From contig CALITO010000013.1 of assembly GCA_938041455.1 (NCBI GenBank), forward strand, positions 1 through 38,600: a stretch of DNA of 38,600 bases, in the 5' to 3' direction. The stretch is from an uncultured bacterium. GTDB lineage: Bacteria; Armatimonadota; JACIXR01. The notes under the pieces were generated by a model. The model made no database searches and was not told the origin of the DNA. It was given only the letters and a program-made list of their open reading frames with translations. A program made the translations under genes and the position numbers. Positions 5,083 to 7,332 of the stretch are shown here, piece after piece. Each line of letters begins with the position of its first letter. Position 1 is the stretch's first letter.

Positions 5083-5652
5083 CTACCTCCTTTCTAAGAA
5101 ATTTCTCAAAAGTTCCTTGCCATACTGGGTGGCTATGGATTCCGGATGGAATTGTAATCCCACTATATAGAAATCCTTATGCTTCACCGCCATCACCTCT
5201 CCCTCCTCCGCCCAAGCGAGAAGTTCCAAACAGGAAGGTAATGTATCCCTTCTTATCGCCAGGGAATGGTAGCGAGTAGCTTGGAATGGGGAGGGAATTC
5301 CCCTGAAAATATGTTTGCCGGTATGATAAATGAGAGAGGTCTTCCCATGCATCAATCTTTTGGCACTTACCACTTCCCCACCAAAGGCATAGCCAATTGC
5401 CTGATGCCCGAGGCAAACACCCAGTATAGGTGTTTTCCCCGCGCAATGTCTTATAAGTTCAACACATATCCCCGCCTCTTCTGGTCTCCCAGGCCCAGGG
5501 GATATCACGATAGATGAGGGATTCATAGCATCCACATCCTCAAGGGAAATTTGGTCGTTGCGAAAAACTTCCAATTCGCATCCCATCTCCCCCAAATATT
5601 GCACAAGGTTATAGACGAAAGAATCGTAATTATCTATCACCAAGATTTTCAT
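5083..5652 (-). CDS. trpG: Anthranilate synthase glutaminase subunit
   Basis: Class I glutamine amidotransferase that supplies ammonia to TrpE. It is 189 aa. The triad is visible: nucleophile Cys80 in ILGVCLGHQAIG, and His169/Glu171 in LQFHPESI. Its ATG overlaps the trpE stop (ATGA), the arrangement expected for a 1:1 complex. The same subunit may also serve para-aminobenzoate synthesis, as in several bacteria; no pabB or pabC is in view, so this remains open. Confidence 0.95.
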   Translation of the reverse strand: MKILVIDNYDSFVYNLVQYLGEMGCELEVFRNDQISLEDVDAMNPSSIVISPGPGRPEEAGICVELIRHCAGKTPILGVCLGHQAIGYAFGGEVVSAKRLMHGKTSLIYHTGKHIFRGIPSPFQATRYHSLAIRRDTLPSCLELLAWAEEGEVMAVKHKDFYIVGLQFHPESIATQYGKELLRNFLERR

Positions 5653-7082
5653 AGATATCTCTCCTCATATTGGTGGAGTGCTTTGAGCAGTGCTTTCGCC
5701 TTGTTCTCTATTTCGAGCAATTCCCTTTGAGGAAGGGAATCGGCCACTATACCAGCTCCAGCCTGAATAAACACCTTGCCCTTATAGAAGATAGCCGTCC
5801 TTATAGTTATGCAGGAATCTAAGTTACCGTTAAAACTGAGGTAGCCTACAACCCCAGCATATGGTCCCCTTCTCACTGGTTCAAGCTCCTCTATTATCTC
5901 CATAGCTCTCACCTTGGGGGCTCCCGAGACGGTTCCTGCGGGAAGGGAAGCCTGGAGGGCGTCCAAGGCGTCCCTATCTTCTCGTAGTTTGCCCTCCACA
6001 TAGGAAACGATGTGCATAACATGGGAGTAGCGTTCTGTGACCATAAATTGAGGGACTTTCACACTTCCATATTCGCACACTTTCCCCACATCGTTTCTCG
6101 CAAGGTCAACGAGCATAAGATGCTCCGCTCTCTCTTTTTCGTCCTCCAGCAAATCCATCTCCAGTTCTTTGTCTTCCTCTGGTGTTCTTCCCCTTGGCCT
6201 CGTTCCCGCTATGGGTCGTTGAAATACAACACCGTTATGCACTCGCACCATAATCTCGGGCGAGGAACCCACCATAACCAAGTCGCCCATTTTGAGATAG
6301 AACATATAAGGGGAAGGATTTATGCTGTGGAGTATGCGATACACATCAAAAGGGTCGCCGGCAAAAGGAAGGGAGAATCTGCGTGAGAGGACAACTTGGA
6401 AGATATCGCCTCGCTCTATGTATCTTTTTGCCCTTTCTACCGCCAATATAAACTCCTCATCACTTATGCTCACTTCCAGGTCTCCCAAGTAGCTTCTCCC
6501 TGGAGCGGAGCCCCTTGGGGAATGGGAAGCGATGTTTGTCAGCATCGCCTTAATTTCCTCTATCTTCCTTCTCCCTTCCTCATAGGCCTTATCTGCACCC
6601 TCGTTAACTTCCGCCATATGGACTATGGTCAGTTCCCTCTTTAAGTGGTCTATCATCAGGATAGTCGGGAAAAGCATCATTATTGATGTGGGCAAGCGGA
6701 GGTCATCTCTCTGGAAGGAAGGGAGTTTTTCCCAAGCTCGCACCGCATCGTAGCTTATGTAGCCCACAGCACCCCCCATGAAAGGAGGTAAGTCCCTGAT
6801 TAGTGGTGCTCTTTTGTTGAGGACCCTCTTGCGCAGTAGGGGGATGGGGTCTTCACCGTTTTGGGTAACCCAGACGGCGGTGGGTTTGCAACCGAGGAAG
6901 GAGTATCTGCCAAGCACTTCTCCCCTCTCCGCGCTTTCCAGAAGGAAAGCATATTTTTCCCTCCCCCACAGTTTGCGGAAGAGGGAGATGGGGGTTTCCT
7001 CATCGAAGAGGAAAGATTCCCAGACCGGGATTATCCTGTAATTACTTGCCAAGTTTTGGAACTCTTTTTCGGTGGGTTCCAA
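5649..7082 (-). CDS. trpE: Anthranilate synthase component I
   Basis: Makes anthranilate from chorismate with TrpG; first committed step of Trp synthesis. I choose the TTG at 7082, read as [14 protein letters not shown], because GGAGGTGAT lies just upstream with 7-nt spacing. The in-frame ORF extends 27 codons further up to 7163, but that stretch is the attenuator terminator. From TTG the protein is 477 aa. The Trp feedback-inhibition motif LLES is present ([14 protein letters not shown]), as is the C-terminal chorismate-binding core ([32 protein letters not shown]). It should therefore be controlled both by Trp binding and by attenuation. It is the first structural gene of the operon. Confidence 0.95.
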
Positions 7083-7088
7083 AACTAT

Positions 7089-7239
7089 CACCTCCTTAAA
7101 AAAGAAGCCACGGGCTTTTACCCGTGGCTTATATGGAGGTGGCAAGTTCTGGCTTACCCGCAATCAGCCACGGGTAATGCCCGCTGGGGGGCATACCCGT
7201 GGCTGTTTATTCACCTATTTAGCCCTCGGATATGCCCCC
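7089..7239 (-). promoter_or_regulatory. trp attenuator with five alternative RNA segments
   Basis: On the minus-strand RNA: A, 7239-7227, inside the leader-peptide codons just after Trp; B, 7204-7187; C, 7182-7166; D, 7129-7118; E, 7114-7105. A:B pairs over 13 contiguous bp with one G-U. B:C makes a 16-bp hairpin with a 1-nt bulge. C:D makes 12 bp, an antiterminator. D:E is the terminator. The pairings are mutually exclusive in a chain. Inferred logic: a ribosome stalled at Trp codons leaves A free, so A:B and C:D form and RNA polymerase reads into trpE. A ribosome that reaches the stop codon covers A, so B:C and D:E form and transcription ends. CACCTCC (7141-7135) can also pair with the trpE SD. 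The pairings are seen in sequence; the switching logic is inference. Confidence 0.85.
7098..7130 (-). terminator. trp attenuator, rho-independent terminator
   Basis: Minus strand: 10-bp stem AAGCCACGGG (7130-7121) with CCCGTGGCTT (7114-7105), 6-nt loop TAAAAG, then C and six T (7103-7098). It ends only 2-3 nt before the trpE SD. This is a textbook intrinsic terminator in a 5' leader, so it should act as an attenuator. Confidence 0.9.
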
Positions 7240-7289
7240 TTCATCCATTGCCACCACCAATTGATGGCAGGTATGAAGGGGTTTTCCAT
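7215..7289 (-). CDS. trpL: trp operon leader peptide (24 aa, WWWQW)
   Basis: Short ORF with ATG at 7289-7287 and TAG at 7217-7215: 24 residues starting MENPFIPAIN, then WWWQW, then MKGAYPRAK. Four of 24 residues are Trp, in codons 11-13 and 15. It sits between a sigma-70 promoter and the trp terminator, as expected of a ribosome-sensed attenuator peptide. There is no SD; the predicted transcript start is only about 10 nt before the ATG, so it may be translated as a nearly leaderless message. The peptide itself is not expected to have a function; its translation rate is the signal. The identification is strong because rare Trp codons, location and terminator coincide. Confidence 0.92.
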   Translation of the reverse strand: MENPFIPAINWWWQWMKGAYPRAK

Positions 7290-7304: not shown

Positions 7305-7332
7305 ATAATAACATAGCTTATTTTTTTGTCAA
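7305..7332 (-). promoter_or_regulatory. trp operon promoter
   Basis: Minus strand: perfect -35 TTGACA (7332-7327), 16-nt spacer, -10 TATTAT (7310-7305). Predicted start is near 7299, about 10 nt ahead of trpL. A 13-nt palindrome, TTGAATAATTCAA (7344-7356), lies 12 nt upstream of the -35 and could be an operator; no regulator is assigned. Confidence 0.75.

Follow-up and report, generated by a model that had tools for sequence, protein, structure and literature searches.

The leader of the trp operon in the window (the whole 38,600-nucleotide stretch of DNA analysed here) is probably a ribosome-mediated trp attenuator, with a six-segment layout as in the enterobacterial his leader and a default state that would be OFF. 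In the his leader the segments pair either as AB, CD and EF, which gives termination, or as BC and DE, which gives read-through (PMC10989985). In the leader described here, Z:A1 (the first or pause hairpin), B:C (an extra middle hairpin) and D:E (the terminator) would alternate with A:B and C:D (antitermination), and both sets of helices are found in three genomes. Base pairing, its conservation and the preferences among folds were shown here by computation, and all statements on mechanism are computational as well.

The trp operon and its leader peptide

Genes read from the ORF translations form a complete tryptophan operon, trpEGDCFBA, on the minus strand from 7082 down to 748. Relatives of TrpE were found in 41 of 41 genomes searched, and the protein is 77% and 74% identical to its counterparts in two genomes of the same genus. 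The leader was compared across these two genomes (G001 and G002) and that of the window (G000). The features are listed in Table 1. A consensus scan of the predicted promoter gave 11 of 12 matches, and by eye both same-genus loci have an equal promoter layout. The transcript is predicted to start at about 7298-7295.

A short ORF with Trp codons lies ahead of trpE. The orthologous leader ORFs in the two same-genus genomes encode MSTPFVVAIIWQWQWTKGAYPQAE and MQNPFIYAHNWQWQWMKGAYPMAE, and Trp codons 1, 3 and 4 are kept across the three genomes. In all three, only some 6-9 nt separate the predicted transcript start from the leader ATG, and no Shine-Dalgarno sequence is seen before it. Translation of the leader peptide may therefore begin on an almost leaderless mRNA.

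Table 1. Positions of the trp leader features in the window.
Feature	Position	Strand	Remarks
trpE	5649..7082	-	TTG start; Shine-Dalgarno AAGGAGGTGA at 7097-7088; first operon gene; from ORF list
Predicted sigma-70 promoter	7305..7332	-	TTGACA 7332-7327, 16-nt spacer, TATTAT 7310-7305
Leader peptide ORF	7215..7289	-	MENPFIPAINWWWQWMKGAYPRAK*; 24 codons; ATG 7289-7287, TAG 7217-7215
Sensing Trp codons (TGG x4; predicted role)	7245..7259	-	7259-57, 7256-54, 7253-51, 7247-45
Segment Z (true segment 1)	7264..7281	-	5' arm of first hairpin, inside leader ORF
Segment A1	7236..7254	-	3' arm of first hairpin; Trp codons; overlaps A by G-run (7239-7235)
Segment A	7221..7239	-	13 pairs with B via 7239-7227, plus GGCU extension 7224-7221
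Segment B	7187..7205	-	Partner A (antitermination relay) or C (termination relay)
Segment C	7165..7182	-	Partner B (17 bp, one bulge) or D (12 bp, antiterminator)
Segment D	7118..7130	-	Partner C (antiterminator, 7129-7118) or E (terminator, 7130-7120)
Segment E and U-run	7098..7115	-	E 7115-7105, U-run 7103-7098; intrinsic terminator with D

Base pairing in the leader RNA

A preliminary description of this leader had recognised five segments, A to E, and had placed the sensing site upstream of segment 1. Neither claim is supported. There is a sixth segment, Z, whose partners are the stretch of Trp codons and the leading GGGGG of A. Z is the true segment 1, whose pairing a ribosome on the Trp codons would disrupt, as in the E. 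coli his leader. In the no-ribosome fold the Z:A1 hairpin has 17 bp between 7281-7264 and 7254-7236, and its energy is about -29 kcal/mol in each of the three genomes. Synonymous recodings of the same peptide reached the strength of Z:A1 in only 59, 4 and 0 of 5000 cases in the three genomes. Thus, the leader codons appear to have been chosen for the hairpin. The inner part of the stem drifts among the genomes, and in G001 an A-U pair has become G-C via Ile-to-Val and Met-to-Thr codon changes. The covariation score of Z:A1, which comes from three sequences and this one compensatory pair, was equalled by 170 of 500 shuffles, and the covariation is suggestive, not proof. Z:A1 and A:B share GGGGG only, five bases.

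The helices among A to E were largely as first described. A (7239-7227) and B (7199-7187) form 13 contiguous pairs, one of them G-U, with a duplex energy of -25.6 kcal/mol, and C:D (12 pairs) and the D:E terminator (11 pairs, followed by CTTTTTT) were likewise recovered. B:C was found in its expected place with its single bulge, although it has 17 pairs and not the 16 claimed. A:B also has a second stem that had been missed, in which GGCU (7224-7221) pairs with AGCC (7204-7201); it measures 4-7 bp across the three genomes. All four helices are kept in both same-genus genomes. The complementarity of A and B exceeds chance. Among 3000 dinucleotide shuffles, 16 had 13 or more consecutive complementary bases joining the leader ORF to the segment downstream, as did 24 of 5000 synonymous recodings. 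Segment B is nearly invariant across the three genomes though it lies outside any coding frame, as would be expected if B must pair with both A and C. Compensatory changes had been proposed as a check on A:B, and the three sequences hold one single-sided change (A-U/G-U). Because segments A to E are almost invariant, covariation carries no verdict on this helix.

D:E is the sole terminator-like site of the stretch. It is present in all three genomes and adjoins the trpE Shine-Dalgarno sequence, just upstream of it. The antiterminator C:D and the terminator D:E with its U-run are mutually exclusive and lie before the first gene of the operon. A core (AGCCACGGG/CCCGTGGCT) is common to the B:C hairpin (7205-7165) and the terminator (7130-7105) and is nearly invariant in the three genomes. 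The two structures may derive from a duplicated hairpin.

Ribosome position and the default state

The leaders of the three genomes were folded at successive lengths with the ribosome footprint masked. With the mask at Trp1-3, which leaves A free, A:B and C:D formed once D had been made, and with the mask of a stop-codon ribosome, which covers A, the leaders folded mainly into B:C and D:E. Both results were obtained in all three genomes and agree with the preliminary description. In silico, then, the masked position of the ribosome selects the fold. The fold for stalls at Trp1 and Trp3 was robust to an assumed ribosome leading edge of +9 to +13. A ribosome at Trp4 mostly gave termination, its edge covering the G-run of A, and sensing should thus take place at the first Trp codons. 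In G000 the A:B and C:D fold of the Trp stall lasts to the U-run. The Trp-stalled leaders of G001 and G002, once complete, prefer the terminator at equilibrium, so the switch in these two genomes relies on C:D being made first.

Read-through had been proposed as the default of the untranslated leader. The equilibrium folds point the other way: with no ribosome, the complete leader of every genome folds into Z:A1 (16-18 pairs), B:C and D:E at both 37 and 65 °C, which is the terminating state. In G001 at 37 °C the fold is a mixture of A:B and B:C, and the terminator forms nonetheless. Read-through was favoured only when Z was masked or E was half made. With transcription about to enter E, the terminating fold of the intact leader is ahead by 4.9 kcal/mol in the window and by 1.4 and 0.6 kcal/mol in the two relatives. 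With Z masked at the same point, the read-through fold is ahead by 4.5, 1.9 and 1.2 kcal/mol. Masking Z thus flips the preference in all three genomes, which indicates that Z sets the default. When E is half made, the balance in the three genomes lies with read-through, by 1.9 to 4.8 kcal/mol; in the complete intact leader it lies with termination, by 1.4 to 11.7 kcal/mol. Termination also regains the lead once a leader with Z masked is complete. Read-through on stalling therefore depends in part on the earlier formation of C:D, a dependence shared with other attenuators. With six segments, an even number, the default is termination as in E. coli; the odd count of five had given the opposite.

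The order in which the helices form bears on this default. As long as C has yet to be transcribed, A:B forms in spite of Z; once C is complete, the equilibrium fold in the three genomes is Z:A1 with B:C. Default termination thus needs fast strand exchange: C would have to take B over from A while the polymerase is still moving from C to E. The same early helix is what speaks for a leader of five working segments. There, Z:A1 would be irrelevant in the cell, and without a ribosome A:B and C:D would form first co-transcriptionally, so that the default would be read-through. A:B does form once B has been transcribed; with only five bases in common, the greater part of Z:A1 can persist beside it; and the half-made E leaves the read-through fold favoured in every genome. 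However, the equilibrium reached once C is complete and the preference of the complete leader both oppose this reading, and Z looks selected, its pairing being conserved, carrying a compensatory change and exceeding synonymous recodings in strength. We consider it unlikely. The kinetic course in which A:B forms before C and is never displaced, so that Z is kinetically irrelevant and read-through follows wherever no translating ribosome gets as far as the stop codon, seems to us slightly less likely still. If A:B were never displaced, the leader would be an amino-acid attenuator that is ON when left untranslated.

Under the six-segment relay with default termination, which we prefer, we infer a course that runs from the promoter through translation and stalling to termination. 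When Trp is scarce, a ribosome on Trp1-3 would break Z:A1 and free A. The freed A would take B and leave C for D; no terminator would form, and transcription would enter trpE. When Trp is plentiful, a ribosome at the stop codon would cover A, B:C and then D:E would form, and transcription would stop. With no ribosome, Z would hold the first bases of A, and B:C and D:E would again stop transcription, as in E. coli. Z may act by competing for GGGGG, exposing the C-run of B as a toehold for C.

Known attenuators and the distribution of the leader

The leader resembles the E. coli/Salmonella his attenuator (hisL) in its six segments, in the additional hairpin that separates the first hairpin from the terminator, and in that stalling would disrupt the first hairpin (PMC1183508, PMC10989985). 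Unlike hisL, it would sense the Trp codons of a trp operon, its control codons lie in the loop and the 3' arm of the first hairpin, and its ATG is placed very near the predicted transcript start with no visible Shine-Dalgarno sequence. With the four-segment trpL of E. coli it shares a Trp-codon leader peptide before trpE, read-through as the expected outcome of stalling and a predicted default of termination. It differs from trpL in two extra relay steps, A:B and C:D standing in for the single 2:3 pairing, and unlike in the E. coli system no TrpR was found in the three genomes. The searches for TrpR (PF01371) and TRAP (PF02081) gave no match in these genomes, and the positive controls matched. 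Modelling suggests that the extra his hairpin reduces basal read-through in operons that have no control other than attenuation, and E. coli trp, which is also controlled by TrpR, lacks the hairpin (PMC1183508). The missing TrpR and TRAP fit this model for attenuation-only operons. Ribosome-mediated trp attenuation outside Proteobacteria is also represented by the Corynebacterium and Streptomyces leaders, which the available excerpt of the source describes as classical antiterminator/terminator structures, with no mention there of a six-segment relay (PMC1262725). A non-exhaustive search of the literature found no description of a six-segment trp leader.

A covariance model spanning Z to C (R1) was searched against 291 genomes of the phylum. 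It matched three of them, all from one genus, and the remaining matches were weak and on the opposite strand of the same loci. Nothing significant for the window leader was found at 33 other trpE loci. The TrpE of a Fimbriimonadia MAG has its nearest matches in the TrpE of these phylum members, which hints that the phylum may be Armatimonadota. Trp-run leader peptides (WWWR and similar) occur upstream of trpE at L016, L017, L018, L021, L024, L026 and L029. Ribosome-mediated trp attenuation thus seems common in this phylum, judging from the frequency of such peptides.

Phylum members with readable Trp leaders are mostly compact and four-segment in appearance, with the exception of one locus (L013) in a genome of another family (G017). 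About 250 nt upstream of its trpE lies a leader encoding MTGSNSWWWWRPFARSATRARISGAWQT. As in the window, the segment that directly follows its Trp codons pairs with a B further downstream; relays of B:C, C:D and D:E come next. This single sequence also folds like the window leader, a stall giving A:B and C:D and a stop-codon ribosome giving B:C and D:E, but its no-ribosome fold terminates through another pairing. No similarity between L013 and the window leader was detected.

The prevalence of compact leaders, in which the Trp codons adjoin the first hairpin and no middle hairpin is seen, would suit an ordinary four-segment trp attenuator in the window as well, with A:B playing no part and C:D versus D:E switched by other means. 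However, the 13 positions of A:B are paired in all three genomes and such a run is rare in shuffles, and B would have little reason to stay nearly invariant outside any coding frame; we regard the four-segment alternative as very unlikely. That the Trp-rich ORF is an accident and the operon is instead controlled by TRAP, a T-box or a different RNA family is hardly credible: no evidence in its support was found, the Trp codons hold conserved positions and no TRAP protein was found in the three genomes, and in Rfam searches no family reached its gathering score in the window, the leader gave only sub-threshold, chance-like matches and no T-box RNA, and neither Trp_leader nor His_leader appeared up to E = 10.

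On the folding evidence, the leader would add to a known kind of attenuator, and no inverted new design is supported. The segment count decides the default state, and a single overlooked hairpin inverts the predicted logic. What the window appears to hold is a his-style six-segment relay in the trp operon of an uncultivated lineage in which neither TrpR nor TRAP was detected.
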